Shown here: positions 24,648-36,715 of the stretch, piece after piece
How positions within the stretch are numbered: position 1 is the stretch's first letter
How the letters are laid out: each line of letters starts with the position of its first letter
Notes under the pieces: generated by a model
What the model saw: only the letters and a program-made list of their open reading frames with translations
Told to the model about the DNA's origin: nothing
Database searches by the model: none
Program-made: the position numbers and the translations under genes
Source: Caldifarciminota bacterium
Lineage (GTDB): Bacteria; Hydrothermota; Tepidihabitantia; SM23-42
Direction of reading: 5' to 3'
DNA: 37,013 bases
NCBI GenBank assembly: GCA_020355325.1
Contig: CP070664.1
Span: forward strand, 1,346,728-1,383,740

Positions 24648-27047
24648 TTGCAAGAGAGATTTACCGAAAGGGTAAGAAAGATACTGCACCTGGCCCGCGA
24701 CGAGGCTTTGCGGTTCAAACAGAATGTTATTGGTACTGAGCATTTGCTTCTCGCGATGATCAAAGAAGGCGAAGGAGTCGGGGCCATGGTTTTAATCAAT
24801 TTAGGTATTGAATTGAATGAACTTAGAAAAAGTATTGAAAATTCAATGGCCATTGGCCATGGAGGTAAATTAGACGTACCGTTTAGCAACGACGCACGCG
24901 TCTGTCTTAACTATTCAATGGAGGAGGCAAAAAATTTCGGCCATTCATATGTAGGAACAGAACACCTGCTTTTAGGTATCATACGCACCGAAGGAAGTCT
25001 CGGTGCCCAGATTCTCGAGTCGATCGGCATCGACTATGGGACGGTAAAGAATGAGATCATCCAGCTCTTAAGACCAGAGGGAGTGGTGACGGGCAAGGCA
25101 AAAGGCAAACCACGTGGTTCTGCATTGGACCTCTTCTCGAGAGACCTCACACATATGGCACAAGAAGATAAACTCGACCCGATCATCGGTCGAGAAAAAG
25201 AGATCGAACGCGTGATACAGGTTCTTTCTCGTCGAAAGAAGAATAATCCTGTCCTCGTCGGAGAGGCTGGCGTTGGGAAAACCGCAATTGTTGAGGGTCT
25301 TGCTCAGGATATCGTCGCAGACAATGTTCCCGACTCCCTGAAGAACAAACGAGTCGTTGCCCTCGACATGGCATCGATCGTAGCCGGAACAAAATATCGC
25401 GGACAGTTTGAGGAACGACTGAAGGCGGTCATCAATGAAGTAAGCAAGAATCCAGACATCATCGTATTCATCGATGAACTCCATACCATTATTGGTGCTG
25501 GTGCAGCCGAGGGAGCAATTGATGCATCAAACATGCTCAAACCTGCGCTCGCGCGAGGCGAACTCCAATGCATCGGCGCAACGACACTCGAAGACTATCG
25601 TCGGTACATAGAAAAAAATGGTGCGCTGGAGCGGAGGTTTCAGCCCATCATCGTGAGCCCGCCGACTGTTCAAGAGACGATCAATATCCTGCAGGGGTTG
25701 AGGAAGAAGTACGAGGACCATCACCAAATCAACTATACCAATGAGTCGCTCGAGGCAGCAGCACGTCTATCAAATCGATATATCACTGATCGATTCCTTC
25801 CTGATAAGGCGATCGATGTCATCGATGAGGCTGGTGCAAAGGTAAAACTCTCAACCGTCGTGCAAGATGAAGAGCTCGTAGCGCTCGAAGGAGAGCTGAA
25901 CGCAATTAAGTTGAGAAAAGAGAAGATGGTTACCGAGCAGAAATTCGAGGAAGCCGCGAGTCTACGCGATGAACAGAAAAAAGTATTGAAAAAGTTAAAG
26001 GAGCGGCAGGCAACAGTTACCTATCCACGTCCGACGGTTGTTGAAGAAGACATCGCCTTCGTCGTATCACGGTGGACAGGAATTCCCGTTTCGAAGATCG
26101 AGGAGAAAGAATCGAAACGGCTTTTACGAATGGAAACAGAGGTGGAAAAGAAAGTCGTGGGACAGAACAAGGCAATCGTTGCGATTGCAAAGGCGGTGAG
26201 GCGCAGTCGCGCTGGCGTGAAGGATCCTCGCAGACCAATCGGTTCGTTCATATTCCTCGGACCGACTGGTGTAGGAAAAACCGAACTCGCCCGCAGACTT
26301 GCTGAATTTTTGTTTGGTGACATCAACTCGTTAGTCGCCCTCGATATGTCCGAATACATGGAAAAATTTAATGTATCACGACTCATCGGTGCACCGCCTG
26401 GCTACGTCGGATACGAGGAAGGTGGTCAACTGACCGAAAAAGTTAGAAGGAAACCATATTCCGTAGTACTTTTCGACGAAATTGAAAAGGCACACCCTGA
26501 CGTGTTTAATATTCTTCTGCAGATTCTTGAGGACGGTCAGCTCACCGATTCCTATGGTCGTAAAGTAGATTTTAAAAACACGGTTATCATCATGACATCA
26601 AATATTGGTACCGCAGAGATTCAGAAAGGGAGTGGTATTGGATTCTCCCAGGCTTCAGAAGAGGCATCGTATGAAAAGATGGAAACGAGGCTCATGGAAG
26701 AGGTGAGGAAGTTGTTCTCACCAGAATTCTTGAATCGTATAGATGAAATCATTGTCTTCAGACAGCTCAACAAAGAGGACATGAAGAAAATTGTTGACAT
26801 TCTCATAAGCGAGGTTGAAGAACGACTCAGCGAAAAGAAGATGAAACTCGAACTCGATGAGTCAACGAAGGAGCTCCTGATTGAAGAAGGTTTTGACCCA
26901 GAATTCGGTGCCCGGCCCCTGAAACGGACAATCCGCAGATTAGTCGAAGACCCTCTTTCTGAGGAAATCCTTAAGGGCAATTTAAAGGAGGGTAAGAATA
27001 TTAAGTTGATACGAGCAGGAGATAAACTCGGATTCAAACAGAAATGA
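24648..27047 (+). CDS. clpC: ATP-dependent Clp protease ATP-binding subunit ClpC
   Basis: A 799-residue Hsp100 unfoldase that feeds substrates to ClpP. Domain order: double Clp_N repeat (1-145), first AAA+ module with [13 protein letters not shown] near 203, UVR middle domain ([19 protein letters not shown], about 425-445) that marks ClpC rather than ClpB, and second AAA+ module with [12 protein letters not shown] near 540 and the GYVGYEEGG loop. The start is TTG with a strong AAGGAGG. The stop overlaps the bamA ATG (ATGA). ClpP is not in the window. Confidence 0.96.
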
Positions 27048-29242
27048 TCCTCCTTCTATTCCTCCTCAACTACACGATTGTCGACATTGAAACCGATGCT
27101 CAATGGACTGATTCACAGCTCATCCTTCAGGCCTCTGGATTGCAGGTCGGTAGCGAATTTCATGATGAAGACATCACACAGGTAATACAAAACCTTTCGA
27201 AGCTGCGTCTGTTTAATTATATTGCTGTCGATACATCAATCGTTGGCGACGGAATATTTTTAACGATAGTCGTCGATGAAGCTCCATTCTTGAAAGGGTT
27301 CCCGGACTTCATTGGTAACAAAAAATTGTCAAACAAGACGCTCAGAAATAAAATTGAACTCACCAGTGGCCAGGTTCTCACTGACAAAACTGTATTCGAT
27401 GCAAAGAATAAAATTATTACGTTATACGAGGAAAAGTATTTTTACAACACCGTCGTGCGTGATAGTCTCGTTAAAGACACCCTCAACAAGGTAAAACTAT
27501 TCTTCATCGTTACCGAAGGTGTTGAGCCTCGCATCAAGAAAATCAACATTGTGGGTAATGAGACATTTACGGATCGTGAAATAAAAGGAAAAATGGCAAC
27601 AAAGGAGAAAGGATTTCTGCGTACCGGCAAGTTGACCAGAGAAAAGTTAGAAGAGGATGTTGAAAAAATAAAATCGTTTTATCAAGATATGGGATTCTTG
27701 GATGTTCATATTGACGAACCCATCATCGAAGTTGAGGGTAACAGATTTATCATCACGATTAATCTCCAGGAAAATAAGAAATATTTTTTTGGGAACACAA
27801 GCTTTCAGGGGAACACCGTCTTCGATACTCCTCTCCTTCAGAGAATGATCAAGTTTAGCAGTGGTGATGTATACAGCTTAAGTAAGGCAGAAGAGTCGAT
27901 CGGCGAACTGTATACTCTTTATGCGGATGAAGGATACATCTATTGCAACATTAGCCCGAACGAAAATGTGCGAGACAGCATCATCGATATTGCGTATACT
28001 ATTTATGAATCCTCCCCGGCATCAATCAATCGTGTGATTGTTGCTGGCAACAACAGCACCAGGGAAAATGTTATCAGGAGAGAAATCGTCACGATGCCTG
28101 GCGAGCGGTTTCGACGTTCTGCCGTGATCAGAAGTCTCAGAGAAATATTTAATCTCGGATTTTTTGAAGACGTTCAACCCCTTACGGGTCCTCCCGATGA
28201 TAGTGGTAATATAGATATCACCTATAAGGTTACCGAGAAAGAGGGTGTCGCGACTATCGGTGCGGGTATGGCATATTCGGCGCAGGATAAGTGGACTGGT
28301 TATCTTGAACTCTCTCATCCAAACCTCTTTGGAAGAGGTCAGCGCCTCTACACTAAACTGGAATTAGGCGGCCGGCTCACGAATATCCAGCTCGGATTTG
28401 TCGAACCGTGGCTTTTCAATACGAGAACATCGGTCGGTGGTGATGTCTACTATACGAATCGCCTCTGGGATTACTACACGAAACGTGATATCGGTACAGC
28501 CCTCTATGTATCATTCCCATTCTATCTTGATTATACCCGTTTTAGCTATAACTTTACACTTGAACGGACACAAGTATTCGATATCTCGGAAACCTACACA
28601 GCACCGACTTCTGGTTACAGTTTATACGATGATACTATTCCGAAGTGGACGCTCGCTAACACCTTCGGCATAACCAGAGATTCTCGAGATTATATCTTCA
28701 ATCCATCGAGTGGTTCCTACATTACGGTACGTGCTGAGGTTGCCAAGAAATTTCTATTTGCGAATGTAGACTACAACCGTGTGACATTTGAGGCACGGAC
28801 CTATTTCCCAATTTTTTGGAAATTTGTACTCATGAACCGGGTGAAGGCGGGTATCGTAACCAGTGTTGATGAAGTTCCTTTTTATAAACGATTTTATGCC
28901 GGAGGCATCGGCGATTTGGGTGTGAGGGGGTATTCAGACCGTTCGCTGTCACCCATGGAAGAGGGTCGTCGAGTCGGTGGGAAAGTCGTCTTTGTCAATA
29001 ACATCGAATTAAAATTCAAGATGTCACAGAGTTTTGCATTACTCGCTTTTTATGATGCCGGTAATGCCTTTGCCTCATATCGTGACGTTACTCTTCACGA
29101 TATCTATCGCGGTATAGGAGTTGGCATACGGCTCGAGGTTCCGATGGTGGGCGCTATTGGTTTTGATTTAGGTTATGGTCTCGATAAAGACAGACCTGGT
29201 TTTACCCCGCATTTCCAGATCAGTCCGTTCGGAATGTTCTGA
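27044..29242 (+). CDS. bamA: Outer membrane protein assembly factor BamA
   Basis: A 732-residue Omp85 protein, the core of the barrel-assembly machine. Five POTRA domains occupy about 12-385 (for example [21 protein letters not shown] and [22 protein letters not shown]). They are followed by a 16-strand barrel with the conserved [16 protein letters not shown] loop, the RGY-type lid motif (VRGY). It ends in GMF with the terminal Phe. The leader is exceptionally short: the first POTRA strand ([11 protein letters not shown]) begins about ten residues from the start. The coding frame overlaps clpC by four bases, an unusual partner. A Skp-like gene follows, as in many diderms. Confidence 0.94.
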
Positions 29243-29354: not shown

Positions 29355-29381
29355 TTAACGACAATTTCTTTTGGAGGTAGG

Positions 29382-30320
29382 ATGAAGAAGTATTTAATCA
29401 TATCAATCATTCTCTTGGGTATTCTGTTTGCCAAGGAGATAAAAATAGGTTTTGTCGAATCGGAACGCATATTCAATGAATATCAGGCAACCGCAGCAGC
29501 AAACGCTGAATTTAACGAATATGTTAGTATGTACCGCGACTCAGCCGCAGTCCTTTTCACAAAGGTCGAAAATCTCAAATCAGAACTAGAGGCTCAAAAG
29601 CTTGTTTTATCAGAAGAAGCCAGGCTCAGAAAATTGGATGAAATAGAAACCTCTACGGGTGCCTATAATCAATTTCTTCAAGATGTTTTCGGCAAGGGAG
29701 GGAAACTAGAACAAAAAAATGACGAGTTGATGGCACCGCTGCTGAAACAAGTAAATGAGGCCGTCGAAAAAATCGCCCAGCAAGAAGGGTTTTCGATTAT
29801 ACTCGATCTGTCGGCAGATGTATTCTATGCATCGAGTGAATTAGATTTAACCGATTTAGTAATAGATGAGTTGAATCTCGAATATGGTCCACCAACGCTC
29901 CCGACGGGTGAAATAAAAAAAATTATTGCCATCTTTCCGTTTACGGAAACGAACCAAGAAGCGATCGACGCCGCTCTCGGTCAGCGATGTCAGACCGAGG
30001 TTTACAACGCAGTGGGCGCCTTTTCTGCGAGACTTAGAATCATTAGTCAGGCAGCAATCAATACCGAAATTATAAAACGTGGTTTGGGAAGAGATATCGA
30101 ATTGGATCAGGCATATGCGATAGGTCTTGCAGTACTCTGTGACTATATCATTGTTGGCAGCGTTTCAAAATTTGCCACAAAAATTGAGTATACTATTTCG
30201 TTGCAAGACGTTACCACAAAAAAGGAAATTGCCAAGAGGAGCAACGAGGTATCTGAGGACATAAAACTCTACGAGGCCATTAATAGTGACCTCAGAGCCA
30301 TGCTTGAAGTATTATATTAG
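29382..30320 (+). CDS. Skp/OmpH-like chaperone fused to a CsgG/LpoB/FlgO-like domain
   Basis: A 312-residue exported protein with a signal peptide of about 17 residues. Residues 20-168 have the OmpH/Skp layout: a strand (IKIGFVESERIFNEY), a long coiled-coil arm, and the closing FSIILDLSADVFYASSELDLTDLVIDELN. Skp holds unfolded outer-membrane proteins. Residues 180-312 are a second domain, beginning KIIAIFPFTE and running to a VGSVSKFATKIEYTISLQDV strand pair, which resembles the alpha/beta fold of CsgG, LpoB and FlgO type proteins. I know of no standard Skp with this tail. The ATG has GGAGG upstream. Its place after bamA supports the chaperone role. Confidence 0.82.
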   Translation: MKKYLIISIILLGILFAKEIKIGFVESERIFNEYQATAAANAEFNEYVSMYRDSAAVLFTKVENLKSELEAQKLVLSEEARLRKLDEIETSTGAYNQFLQDVFGKGGKLEQKNDELMAPLLKQVNEAVEKIAQQEGFSIILDLSADVFYASSELDLTDLVIDELNLEYGPPTLPTGEIKKIIAIFPFTETNQEAIDAALGQRCQTEVYNAVGAFSARLRIISQAAINTEIIKRGLGRDIELDQAYAIGLAVLCDYIIVGSVSKFATKIEYTISLQDVTTKKEIAKRSNEVSEDIKLYEAINSDLRAMLEVLY

Positions 30321-30335: not shown

Positions 30336-30782
30336 TTAACGTCTCATTTTTTTGATATGCTTTATCATATCGAGAATCTCGCGCGTAAACTCGTCTTCAA
30401 ATATCAGAAATTTTGCCTGTTGTACTGGCGTGAGGATCTTTTCCATTTCTTTTAGACTCTTAACTTCCTGCTCAATCTTTTTGATGTGAACAGCCCGGTA
30501 CTGTTCTACAACGTTCCGAATTTCCTGATTCGATGCGCCCCTATGCAGTAAAATTCTCATCTCAGACAATAATTGCATACGTTGTTTTCGAAAATCTCTT
30601 TCGACTTTCCTAAATTCGTGTAATTTAGGAAATAGTTGTGTTGCCTGTTCTGATGTTAAATCCAACTCTTGCGTAATGCGCCAAATCCTCACCTCCTCAA
30701 TAATGACGCGCGGATCCTTTGCATCAAAATTTTGAGCAAACAGGAGCATCAGGAAAGTTAACAAACTCATAATTATTCTCAT
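30336..30782 (-). CDS. Spy/CpxP-like periplasmic protein
   Basis: A 148-residue exported helical protein with a short leader (MRIIMSLLTFLMLLFAQ). Two LTxxQ-type motifs mark the Spy/CpxP/ZraP family (LTSEQATQLFP near 45, LTPVQQAKF near 120), with long amphipathic helices between them. Family members sense or buffer misfolded protein or metal in the periplasm. It follows an ECF sigma/anti-sigma pair by 78 nt and probably serves the same stress response. A GAGGAGG ribosome site precedes the ATG. It converges on the Skp-like gene with only 15 bases between stops. Confidence 0.82.
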   Translation of the reverse strand: MRIIMSLLTFLMLLFAQNFDAKDPRVIIEEVRIWRITQELDLTSEQATQLFPKLHEFRKVERDFRKQRMQLLSEMRILLHRGASNQEIRNVVEQYRAVHIKKIEQEVKSLKEMEKILTPVQQAKFLIFEDEFTREILDMIKHIKKMRR

Positions 30783-30818
30783 TGCACCTCCTCAGCAATA
30801 AATCCGTCTATCACAAAC

Positions 30819-30830
30819 TCGTTATAACGA
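30819..30830. promoter_or_regulatory. Perfect 12-bp palindrome upstream of the Spy-like gene
   Basis: TCGTTATAACGA is self-complementary and is flanked by a wider ACTCG/CGAGT pair. It lies in the gap between the anti-sigma gene and the Spy-like gene, 37 nt before the latter's ATG. It could be an operator or part of a separate promoter; nothing in the sequence decides. Confidence 0.3.
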
Positions 30831-30860
30831 ATCGCGAGTGACGTGATTAAAATTTTCTGT

Positions 30861-31406
30861 TTACCAACCATAATCGTACTGAGTAGATACGAATTGTACG
30901 AATGTTGCCTGTTCCTCTTCAGTTAATTCGTTAATAGATTCATCTACGCCGAGTGTAAAATAGTCCTCTAAAACAGTCATATCATCAATCAACTCATCAC
31001 TAATTACACCTTCCAGGCTGATGTCGGCAATCTCCTCGTCCTCAAGCAGCGTCGAAGTCGGAATTGCAATCTCGATAGTTTCTGTGGGCCGCGGAATGAG
31101 AATAACGAGGAGCACGGCTGCAACACATGCGGGAACAAAGATTCGTAAAAACCTTTTTACCGTAAACCATCGTGGAATTATTTCACGCTGTCGCATCTTG
31201 AGTCTCAGATTATCAAAAAATTGCCTTTCAGGAAGTACAACCTCGTCTGCGTCTAATACTTCGTACAGCTTCTTGATTGAGACATATTCTTCGTGACAAC
31301 GTGAGCATTGTTTGAGATGGTCATCAAAGAGTACACGTTTGTCCTCTGATACACGACCCTCGATGAAGTCTACGATATTCTCTTTCAATCGTCCGCAGAT
31401 GTTCAT
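30861..31406 (-). CDS. Zinc-finger anti-sigma factor
   Basis: A 181-residue single-pass membrane protein. The N-terminal cytoplasmic part has the ZAS motif HLKQCSRCHEEY (HxxxCxxC), which binds the ECF sigma factor. One membrane segment lies at about 85-105 (IFVPACVAAVLLVILIP), followed by an acidic periplasmic region of about 75 residues. In related systems envelope stress releases the sigma factor by inactivating this protein. ATG 31404-31406 overlaps the sigma stop (ATGA), so the two are made together. Confidence 0.9.
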   Translation of the reverse strand: MNICGRLKENIVDFIEGRVSEDKRVLFDDHLKQCSRCHEEYVSIKKLYEVLDADEVVLPERQFFDNLRLKMRQREIIPRWFTVKRFLRIFVPACVAAVLLVILIPRPTETIEIAIPTSTLLEDEEIADISLEGVISDELIDDMTVLEDYFTLGVDESINELTEEEQATFVQFVSTQYDYGW

Positions 31407-31924
31407 AACCACTGTTTGAGGAGAACCTGCAATTTCTTAATTGCATGATAGTGATTTGCCTTCGCTGCTCCAGTCGAGATATTCATGATCGCTGCTGTTT
31501 CGGCAAACGTGTACCCTTCATAGTGATGCAGAATAAATGTCAGCCGCTGCCTTTTTGGTAGCTGAGCCAGTGCATCGTCAATGTCAGCCTTCATTCTTAC
31601 TCTCCGTTCCATGGGCAAAGGATTTGACGGCACATGATTTTTCGGCTGCAGTGGGGGATTTTTGCGTTTGAAAGAGATACAGGTATTAACGGTAATCCGA
31701 TACAGCCAGGTGAAGAATTTTGATTTTTCATTGAATTTTTTAAGATTACGATATACCTTGATAAAAATTTCTTGGGTAACATCGCGTGCATCAGCATCAT
31801 TTCTCGTGTACCTATAACAAATCGAATAGAGCGAAACACGATACTTCTCATAAAGTTGATCAAATGCCATTTCATCGCCATTCTTAAATTTCCTGACCAA
31901 AACCATATCTTCATCGTTATACAC
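31403..31924 (-). CDS. RpoE-like ECF sigma factor
   Basis: A 173-residue ECF sigma factor. Region 2 is clear (FDQLYEKYRVSLYSICYRYTRNDADARDVTQEIFIKVYRNL, then FFTWLYRITVN) and region 4 reads ALAQLPKRQRLTFILHHYEGYTFAETAAIM followed by a helix-turn-helix. It directs RNA polymerase to a stress regulon. The start is GTG 31924, five nt after a GTCTAA -10-like box and with no ribosome site, so leaderless translation is predicted; ATG 31906 is the only good alternative. It is coupled to its anti-sigma gene. Confidence 0.92.
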   Translation of the reverse strand: MYNDEDMVLVRKFKNGDEMAFDQLYEKYRVSLYSICYRYTRNDADARDVTQEIFIKVYRNLKKFNEKSKFFTWLYRITVNTCISFKRKNPPLQPKNHVPSNPLPMERRVRMKADIDDALAQLPKRQRLTFILHHYEGYTFAETAAIMNISTGAAKANHYHAIKKLQVLLKQWL

Positions 31925-34684: not shown

Positions 34685-36715
34685 TCAGTTCTTCTCTATT
34701 ATATCTTCGGTTGGAATCTCTTTCTCTTCTGCCTCTATTTTCTTTTCAGGCATCTTTTCTTGTTCGGGTTTTGGGATTTGCTCTTCTGCTTTTTCTTCAG
34801 GCTCTTCTAAAAATATTTGAATATCTGCCTCTTCTCTTATTGTTGCAAGAAATTCGTTTACAACTTGTCCTTGTTTTTGGCGGAGCAGGTTTGCTTCGAT
34901 GTGTTGCTGCACTTCTTCAAATGGTCGGTAGGTCTCAGGATTATACTCATCGACGACGACGATTGTATATTTTTTGTCGTCGGCGGAGAAGACTCTGCTC
35001 ATTTCGCCTGCCCTTAACGTGAATACAACATCATCAAACTTCTTGGGCTTCATGCCCCTTCTCACGAGACCGAGTGAACCGCCACGACTTTTCGCAGCGC
35101 CGATCGAGTGTGTTTTGGCAAGCGAATCAAATGCTGTGGGGTTTTTCAATAAGACATTACGTATTTGCTGCGCGAGTTCTCTTTCCTCAACAACAATTTC
35201 TCGAGCTCGAACAGACTCAGGAATTTTGAAATCATCCTTGTGTTCGGTGTAGTAGTCTTTCACCTCTTCAGAGTCAACACTCACTGCCTCGACGACGACT
35301 TTAATATAGAGACCACGGCTCATGAGTTCAGTCAGAGCGGCTTGAAGCTTGGTAAAGTAGCTGTCGTTCAAGAAATATTTATGTTGTTCTGCCCACTCCA
35401 CTTGCAATTCTTCATCAATGTACTTGTCGATGGCTTTCTTAAACTCAACGGAATCAGTCAAATTCATTTTTGCGAACTGTGGGTGTGTTTCTTGCAGCCT
35501 CTCTATGTCACTCCGGAGAATCAATCGACCGTTCACGACTGCAATCACGCTGTCCTGTGGTTCCTCGTAGATTTCAATCTGCGCACCCGACCTGAGTCGC
35601 TGTGAAAATTCCTTTTCGATTGCCCTCAGCTTCTCGGTCTTGGCCGCGGCCTCAATACTGGTTTTTACCTCTTCAAAATCACGATAACGCTTAGGATTAT
35701 GCTCGGTCACGATATAGATACCAAATTTATCATCATAAGGAACTATATCGGTCACGGTATTCATTTCCGCGCGAAAGAGCATACTGTCTACGGGAGCTGG
35801 TTTCGTTCCGCGGTATACAATGCCCATGTTCCCACCTGAATTTCGATTTGCTGCAGTCGAGTACAGTTTCGCCAGTGTATCAAAACTGGCCGCGTCGATT
35901 TTTAATGAATCGAGTATGAATTGTGCAAGGCTGTCAGAATCAACGACTATCTCCTTTCCTCTTACTTCCTCACGCAGTTTATAGTTTTCTTTGTTGTCCT
36001 TATAGTATTTTTTCATTTCTTTCTCTGTCGGTATCGACTTGCTAACGATGTCACTCTCGCGTACCTCGTCGACAAGGAACGAGCGCTTTTTGCTTGCGAT
36101 GTTTTCTTTAAAAAATTCTGTGTCTTGAACATTTTCTTTAATTGCGTTTGTGTAGATGAGCCGTTCGGTAATCATCCGGTCAAGGACGCTCTGTACATCC
36201 TTCTTGCCAAAGAGTGTACGCTTCATCTGTTCGTCTAACTCAAGCCTCGTTATATTGTAGTCATCGATTGTCGCCACAAAATCCTGATAGTTCTTCTTGA
36301 AGCACCGTTCTACTCCAGTAAGAGAAAACGAGTCGAGCGGTGGCGTACGGAACCGTGTCGCTACAATTTCATACGCCTTGGCGGCATTCAAAAAGTCCTC
36401 TTTCATTTCAAAAACCTGGGCGAGTCGATAATAAACCCAGCCATCTTTTTGCTGATACGCATCAATAATTTTCTGATAGATTTGTGCCGCGCTATCTAAC
36501 TGAGCCAGTTTATTAAAGTAGATATCACCCTTTTCTAACTCCCACATATATGTTTTTTTGCCGTTCAGACCCGAGAGCAGGAAACAGCCAGCACCTGCTT
36601 GCGGTTTACTGATCATCTCATTACAGTAAGCAATTGCCTCTTCGTACTTGCCTTGCATGAGAAGGTCTATATAGTCCTGTGGTAGACTTATCAATAGTGC
36701 AAATAATAATGCCAT
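34685..36715 (-). CDS. SurA/PpiC-like periplasmic protein with tandem parvulin domains and N-terminal TPR
   Basis: A 676-residue exported protein. A very short leader (MALLFALLISLP) is followed by TPR-like repeats (about 15-130), and then two successive SurA-N plus PPIC units. The first PPIC domain is at about 245-350 and the second at about 500-605 (AKSRGGSLGLVRRGMKPKKFDDVVF). A Glu/Lys/Pro-rich tail closes the protein. The parvulin active-site His of the HILV strand is Glu in both domains (RGKEIVV, RAREIVV), and the later His of the GYHI-type strand is absent too. So isomerase activity is doubtful and a holding chaperone role for outer-membrane proteins is more likely. AAGGAG lies five nt before the ATG. 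Confidence 0.86.
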   Translation of the reverse strand: MALLFALLISLPQDYIDLLMQGKYEEAIAYCNEMISKPQAGAGCFLLSGLNGKKTYMWELEKGDIYFNKLAQLDSAAQIYQKIIDAYQQKDGWVYYRLAQVFEMKEDFLNAAKAYEIVATRFRTPPLDSFSLTGVERCFKKNYQDFVATIDDYNITRLELDEQMKRTLFGKKDVQSVLDRMITERLIYTNAIKENVQDTEFFKENIASKKRSFLVDEVRESDIVSKSIPTEKEMKKYYKDNKENYKLREEVRGKEIVVDSDSLAQFILDSLKIDAASFDTLAKLYSTAANRNSGGNMGIVYRGTKPAPVDSMLFRAEMNTVTDIVPYDDKFGIYIVTEHNPKRYRDFEEVKTSIEAAAKTEKLRAIEKEFSQRLRSGAQIEIYEEPQDSVIAVVNGRLILRSDIERLQETHPQFAKMNLTDSVEFKKAIDKYIDEELQVEWAEQHKYFLNDSYFTKLQAALTELMSRGLYIKVVVEAVSVDSEEVKDYYTEHKDDFKIPESVRAREIVVEERELAQQIRNVLLKNPTAFDSLAKTHSIGAAKSRGGSLGLVRRGMKPKKFDDVVFTLRAGEMSRVFSADDKKYTIVVVDEYNPETYRPFEEVQQHIEANLLRQKQGQVVNEFLATIREEADIQIFLEEPEEKAEEQIPKPEQEKMPEKKIEAEEKEIPTEDIIEKN

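Follow-up and report, generated by a model that had tools for sequence, protein, structure and literature searches.

A two-domain Skp encoded in the window

The window, i.e. the whole stretch of 37,013 nucleotides analysed here, lies in a genome of 2.85 Mb contained in one contig and belonging to the phylum that named relatives (WOR-3, Candidatus Stahlbacteria) identify as candidate division WOR-3/Stahlbacteria. On its forward strand, a bamA gene encoding POTRA repeats and an Omp85 barrel is directly followed by a skp gene with an additional 3' portion (Table 1). The skp frame starts with ATG, encodes 312 amino acids and is uninterrupted, with no internal stop codon in the ORF and no N base within the window; scans for promoters and terminators stayed at chance level.

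Table 1. Features of the bamA and skp genes in the window; residue numbers refer to the fused Skp protein
Feature	Position	Strand	Basis
bamA (POTRA repeats and Omp85 barrel), directly upstream of fused skp	27044..29242	+	Pfam Omp85 E 3.1e-51, POTRA E 6.5e-49
Shine-Dalgarno sequence GGAGGT of fused skp	29373..29378	+	sequence reading
Fused skp (TolB-N/LpoB/CsgG-type C-domain), 312 aa	29382..30320, stop included	+	ORF, Pfam, relatives
Hydrophobic N-terminus, likely cleaved signal peptide, residues 1-17 (...LFA/KE)	29382..29432	+	sequence reading
OmpH/Skp domain, residues 21-164	29442..29873	+	PF03938 and fold matches
Linker, residues 169-179	29886..29918	+	predicted model and alignment of 57 relatives
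C-terminal alpha/beta domain, TolB-N/LpoB/CsgG superfamily, residues 180-311	29919..30314	+	profiles and fold
Beta1-alpha1 loop, residues 186-194, candidate contact site	29937..29963	+	residue counts, fused vs free-standing

Over the whole protein, OmpH (PF03938) is the sole Pfam family listed, and its model is matched from end to end (positions 1-141 of 141; E 2.8e-26, 92.8 bits against a cut-off of 32.4). The Skp half is predicted by AlphaFold2 to form body strands and a tentacle hairpin, and its Foldseek matches include 8gl8, 4kqt, 1sg2 and 1u2m. The complete OmpH domain and the signal-like N-terminus are shared with Escherichia coli Skp/OmpH, but standard Skp ends after the body, whereas the window protein continues with a second folded domain of about 140 residues. 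A complete OmpH/Skp domain with a C-terminal extension had been proposed from the DNA letters alone (the sequence-only reading), and this is borne out by the extent of the Pfam match and by the conservation of the extension in the phylum, so that the two-domain architecture can be regarded as practically certain.

The two domains are joined by a linker which, measured between the columns of Y168 and K180 in 57 relatives, has 8 to 24 residues with a median of 10; in the AlphaFold2 model of the whole protein (pLDDT 83.4, pTM 0.53), its residues 173-176 have a pLDDT below 50. Conservation is lower in the C-domain than in the Skp half (means of 2.06 vs 2.68 bits per column). At the other end of the protein, the N-terminus reads as a likely cleaved signal peptide without cysteine: no cysteine was found in residues 9-40, and since none occurs at the hydrophobic N-terminus, the window protein has no lipobox. 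Among the 57 relatives, 11 have a cysteine in residues 9-40 and three a loose lipobox pattern; in these three, where the pattern appears to fall inside the hydrophobic stretch, a lipid anchor is conceivable.

Predicted fold and superfamily of the C-terminal domain

When modelled alone by AlphaFold2 (pLDDT 86.4, pTM 0.79; 80-93 by block of 10 residues, lower in the final block), the C-domain has, as in the model of the whole protein, a predicted topology of strand-helix-helix-strand-helix-helix, followed by a three-stranded meander and a last helix. Foldseek placed LpoB first (E 8.4e-8), then TolB, GNA1162 and PelC. In VIA-align, where rows less than 1 Z apart are ties, the highest score belonged to the N-terminal domain of TolB (PF04052; PDB 2hqs), with Z 14.4 over 125 residues (rmsd 3.5) and 14.3 over 122 (rmsd 2.5); PelC (13.1; dodecamer entries 13.0 and 12.9), FlgT (12.9), GNA1162 (12.4), the C-terminal domain of LpoB (11.8; PF13036; PDB 4q6l, 4q6z, 2mii) and CsgG (11.1) followed, and lower values were obtained for CadC (9.9), PqiC (8.9) and the anticodon domain of histidyl-tRNA synthetase (8.8). 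CsgG, PelC and FlgO/FlgT thus share the fold class with the window domain at Z 11 to 13. Each of these relatives also differs from it: CsgG is longer, whereas the window domain is hung on a chaperone and comes without a lipobox; the C-terminal helix extends beyond the LpoB match; and no beta-propeller follows as in TolB.

The window C-domain taken singly gave no Pfam family at E 10 or at E 1, and the window protein reaches neither the LpoB (PF13036) nor the CsgG (PF03783) cut-off, so that an identity as CsgG is not given by Pfam. A search of the PDB set with a profile of 57 C-domains gave LpoB at E 1.7e-5, ahead of a first unrelated row at 0.15, and when the 57 members were scanned singly at E <=1, DUF3280 was matched by 24, FlgO by 15, LpoB by 12 (best E 7.7e-6), TolB_N by five and CsgG by one, while plainly unrelated families were each matched by at most three. 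Similarly, the 30 members from outside the class, which played no part in building the profile, matched TolB_N (13), LpoB (7), CsgG (6), DUF3280 (6) and FlgO (4) at E <=0.1, with at most two for each unrelated family. Column-shuffled C-domain profiles found nothing in 20 of 20 trials against the ORFs of all fetched loci; the real profile found 124 matches among the same ORFs, mostly its source proteins or copies of them, and 22 lay in loci of free-standing relatives.

These 22 free-standing relatives, found by the profile, were aligned to the fused C-domains by hhalign at 99.5% over 140 columns, and likewise at 99.5% when C-domains from outside the class were used, as against 0.3% for a Skp control; this is a dependent test, because the same profile had picked those 22. 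The Pfam identity of the scanned free-standing relatives is, by contrast, an independent support: ten were scanned, of which eight are CsgG and one is TolB_N, each over cut-off, and one shows neither. On the combined strength of the profiles and the predicted fold, the C-domain is assigned to the TolB-N/LpoB/CsgG/FlgO/PelC superfamily.

The motifs that had pointed to the CsgG/LpoB/FlgO fold in the first place, IIAIFPFTE, RIISQ and VGSVSKFATKIEYTISLQDV, are all present, at residues 181, 219 and 258, respectively, and the glycine at 259 is common to all groups (56/57 in the class, 29/30 outside it and 22/22 free-standing). Structure prediction and fold search agree in presenting the C-terminal part as a predicted separate domain of the CsgG/LpoB/TolB-N class and not something unrelated. 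The fold as named in the sequence-only reading is thereby supported by profiles and fold matches, with the correction that the top Z belongs to the TolB N-domain, then to PelC and FlgT. The module appears in other settings too: a relative of the C-domain, with TolB_N over cut-off, stands behind an AhpC/TSA thioredoxin-like domain (L106:967-1869), which by its sequence shows that it is also attached to other proteins.

Occurrence in the phylum

Queried with the whole protein, 58 of 61 genomes (the window's own and 60 relatives) gave a match. A profile of 57 aligned full-length relatives (A1, 317 positions) matched 142 of the 147 phylum genomes, the best match reaching at least position 280 of 317; the two shortest-reaching matches (G009, G122) run up against contig edges, and those of G001 and G117 contain a stop codon, near the end of the match as judged by frame length. 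PF03938 likewise gave 142 of 147 genomes over cut-off, with one row each and always in open frames of at least 291 residues, and no short Skp over cut-off was seen among the matches listed for the 147 genomes. In a further difference from ordinary Skp/OmpH, the lineage did not yield a second OmpH gene over cut-off. As for the five genomes without a fused match, one is 53% complete and has matches below cut-off, and four, 89 to 96% complete, have no OmpH match at all; either assembly gaps or true loss would account for them. As far as these searches go, the fused form is the only Skp found in its lineage and is nearly universal in the phylum.

A second copy in one genome (L073 in G005) comprises 1247 bases that are 98% identical to the bamA end and skp start of L015 from the same genome, and its Skp half breaks off after about 79 residues; it is either a recent partial duplication or an assembly chimera.

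The sequence-only reading had itself named a frameshift joining two genes as the alternative to a genuine fusion. Parts of the window's assembly do contain errors or pseudogenes, since a class A penicillin-binding protein (PBP) gene runs into an N gap (L151:2579-2678) and a PBP1C-like gene is split into two ORFs (L152:2121-4361). Nevertheless, the two parts are joined in one frame in 142 of 147 phylum genomes as well as in 15 of 15 genomes from outside phyla, and the window has no N; a frameshift or assembly error as the source of the fusion is thus excluded for practical purposes.

Occurrence outside the phylum and origin of the fusion

The A1 search covered 390 genomes, 243 of them outside the phylum, and 197 of the latter matched. 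Fused proteins among these outside matches are those of G248, G275, G176 and G323 (three families). Ninety of the 197 were inspected, i.e. these four, which were included deliberately, 76 chosen mainly by match strength and ten others, so that four in 90 is no frequency; the remaining matches, about 107, are weaker. In the other 86 inspected genomes the match is confined to the Skp half; in 76 inspected outside genomes the best match ends by profile position 209, the longest ones crossing stop codons. The search beyond the phylum that had been suggested for this architecture thus succeeded: three small phyla carry the fusion in 1/1, 10/10 and 4/4 genomes, i.e. in all 15, with one stop inside the matched stretch in G400.

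In a quick tree of the Skp half, the f166 proteins fall inside a starred group (SH-aLRT 96), which is otherwise Skp-only, and this placement speaks for a separate origin of their fusion. A single clade of all fused proteins was not rejected by the AU test for either half (Skp half p 0.52, C half p 0.72), and the free-standing relatives of the C-domain are separate from the fused ones except for one row; one ancient fusion is compatible with these sequence data.

TolB-like and LpoB-like readings of the C-terminal domain

The structural closeness to TolB, whose N-domain gives the highest Z (14.4) with the last helix included, raises the idea that the C-domain replaces that domain and ties Skp to a Tol-Pal-like system. 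It fits with this idea that none of the 28 genomes of families f1-f3 has TolB_N over cut-off. However, six of 13 other genomes of the class have TolB_N over cut-off in addition to a fused Skp; because TolB_N-positive genomes also carry the fusion, the latter does not track TolB loss, and replacement is very unlikely. Identity with TolB itself is rejected, as the protein ends after the domain and has no beta-propeller, and as TolB_N matches coexist with it in some genomes. By family, within 41 genomes of the same class, TolB_N over cut-off is absent from f1 (the window's family), f2, f3, f4 and f8 and is found in f5, f6 and f7.

LpoB is an outer-membrane lipoprotein whose docking site on PBP1B is the UB2H domain. 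An LpoB-like C-domain would activate a class A PBP and in this way link barrel delivery to wall growth, and two observations agree with it: among solved structures, LpoB gives the strongest match by sequence, and class A PBPs occur in 40 of 41 genomes. On the other hand, where both were sought, i.e. in 41 genomes, none of the UB2H matches (E 0.01) coincides with a class A PBP. UB2H is also missing from two PBPs of one relative that were scanned whole (a diverged UB2H could escape), and the window protein is without a lipobox. This reading is accordingly held to be most improbable, and LpoB as an identity of the domain was discarded on the missing lipobox and the UB2H not found in the synthases. 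The functional suggestion of the sequence-only reading thus survives in part: the link to a wall synthase is weakened by the absence of UB2H at the PBPs, whereas a docking role is plausible.

Of the two whole PBPs just mentioned, one is plain and the other ends with BiPBP_C and Big_7. In many genomes the UB2H model itself also matches frames about 670, 950 and 1150 residues long, whose lengths make UvrB, UvrA and Mfd the probable identities; given such matches in unrelated frames, PF14814 used alone for finding PBP1B is a trap.

A possible docking function

Domains of this superfamily mostly serve as docking or ring-building parts of envelope machines: LpoB acts on PBP1B, TolB on Pal and TolA, PelC on PelB and FlgT on flagellar rings. 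In this lineage Skp, the periplasmic holdase for outer-membrane barrels, would have gained its C-terminal module in a distant ancestor and kept it since. Trimerisation would take place through the Skp body, as in the family, and, if the known Skp fold applies, three C-domains would hang by short flexible linkers at the body side, away from the tentacle client cavity. By family analogy, the C-domain would dock the trimer, loaded with client, on an outer-membrane envelope machine, and the beta1-alpha1 loop typical of the fused domains may provide the contact. Of the roles considered, docking of the Skp trimer to an outer-membrane partner is the most likely, with roughly even chances. A strongly fixed interface is not obvious in the C-domain, because it is less conserved than the Skp half.

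The loop in question (residues 186-194) has the consensus P-F-x-E-x-N-x-E-A within the class. Three of its residues distinguish fused from free-standing domains, namely E189 (57/87 vs 2/22), E193 (54/87 vs 2/22) and A194 (70/87 vs 2/22), in counts that ignore relatedness among sequences; N191 is found in 41 of 57 members within the class and in five of 30 outside it, and P186 also occurs in nine of the 22 free-standing domains. Being enriched in Skp-fused domains and rare in free-standing ones, the loop may be a contact site.

A precedent for an extended Skp bound to an outer-membrane machine comes from Flavobacterium johnsoniae SkpA (PDB 8gl8), which is the closest solved relative of the Skp half (E 2.8e-21). 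Its description (PMC10994853) presents the SkpA trimer as part of the T9SS translocon, docked to this outer-membrane machine, with a C-terminal extension of which a helix contacts the outer-membrane protein PorV; according to the same source, removal of the contact helix did not lower export. SkpA differs from the window protein in that its extension is mostly unresolved, with one contact helix (PMC10994853), and the extension shows no sign of a C-domain of the window type, the profile match ending at SkpA residue 177 of 341. If docking is true, the fused Skp would join the Bacteroidota SkpA as the second Skp tied via a C-terminal addition to an envelope machine, and such tethering would seem to have arisen more than once.

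Two other uses of the C-domain have to be weighed against docking, both of them staying with Skp itself. In the first, it would serve oligomerisation, with several Skp trimers assembled through it into a bigger ring or cage that could take large barrels. TolB and LpoB share the fold and are not known as ring formers, which counts against this possibility; among the fold kin there are nonetheless ring-forming proteins, i.e. PelC, matched also through its dodecamer entries, and CsgG, with the Z scores given above. Moreover, PMC9820271, which describes Skp as a trimer formed via the body with clients held between the tentacles, indicates that large clients need two Skp trimers in E. coli. On balance, a ring module appears unlikely.

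In the second, the C-domain would need no outside partner and would instead extend the surface that binds clients or cover the Skp cavity as a lid. Since only one Skp was found in the phylum, the fused one, any gain in holdase activity would be kept, and the lower conservation of the C-domain relative to the Skp half is also in line with this use. It is opposed by the position of the C-domain, which, judging from the known Skp fold, would hang at the end of the body and not at the tentacle tips, and by the other superfamily members being docking parts and not holdases; we consider it quite unlikely.

With the lineage's only Skp permanently joined to a docking-type domain, Skp docking can be approached through binding, for which a defined domain and a candidate loop are at hand. 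A literature search, with most subscription papers outside its coverage, gave no description of Skp joined to such a domain; the parts are already known, while their combination is new and apparently obligatory.

Gene neighbourhood and BAM as a candidate partner

Where it can be determined, the fused skp keeps the company of outer-membrane biogenesis genes. Directly upstream there is an ORF matching the BamA profile in 26 of 26 loci from f2, f3 and the window's family, as well as in 11 of 11 fused loci from outside phyla; for six of these 37 loci, the distance from the end of the BamA frame to the Skp match is 13 to 133 bases. No such ORF was found in the 32 loci of the same-class families f4-f9, some of which are cut short upstream, and in other classes of the phylum bamA is directly upstream in four of 20 loci. 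In Skp-only loci outside the phylum this arrangement was seen in 18 of 20; bamA-skp being the common order of ordinary Skp genes, the adjacency is no mark of the fusion.

Downstream, acyltransferases with hexapeptide repeats follow skp in all four loci scanned by Pfam out of the 19 listed (L049, L055, L063 and, from another class, L132). Two of the four have an LpxD N-domain match, one of them over cut-off, and this lpxD-like gene elsewhere in the phylum, like bamA upstream in the window and the nearest families, recalls the gene order of Skp/OmpH. A UPF0004/radical-SAM protein precedes skp in L049 and L055, the two loci scanned upstream, and at least five more of the 19 loci (L133, L139, L140, L142, L145) have their next downstream ORF on the opposite strand, as has the window for its next gene downstream. 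The gene context search revealed no partner for the C-domain.

The BAM machinery would be the first candidate for such a partner on account of the position of skp immediately behind bamA, both in the window and in the nearest-family and outside fused loci counted above; support from this adjacency is weak, because the same order is common among ordinary skp genes, and BAM is proposed as the partner with low confidence. To our knowledge, a direct link between Skp and BAM has never been shown in E. coli. The more specific arrangement, in which three TolB-N/LpoB-type heads per trimer would hold loaded Skp against BAM in WOR-3 and a few small phyla, so that Skp would be a fixed subunit of the outer-membrane assembly site and not a freely diffusing chaperone, is doubtful.

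Finally, the minus strand of the window carries further envelope-related genes. Convergent with skp, positions 30336-31924 encode a small LTXXQ/Spy-like protein (E 1.1e-4, just below the Pfam cut-off), an ECF sigma factor and an anti-sigma-like protein of the zf-HC2 type; the set resembles an envelope-stress cassette. At 34685-36715, a SurA/PpiD-like protein of 676 residues, with a weak TPR signal and two PpiC rotamase stretches, is a second candidate for barrel handling near the fused skp.
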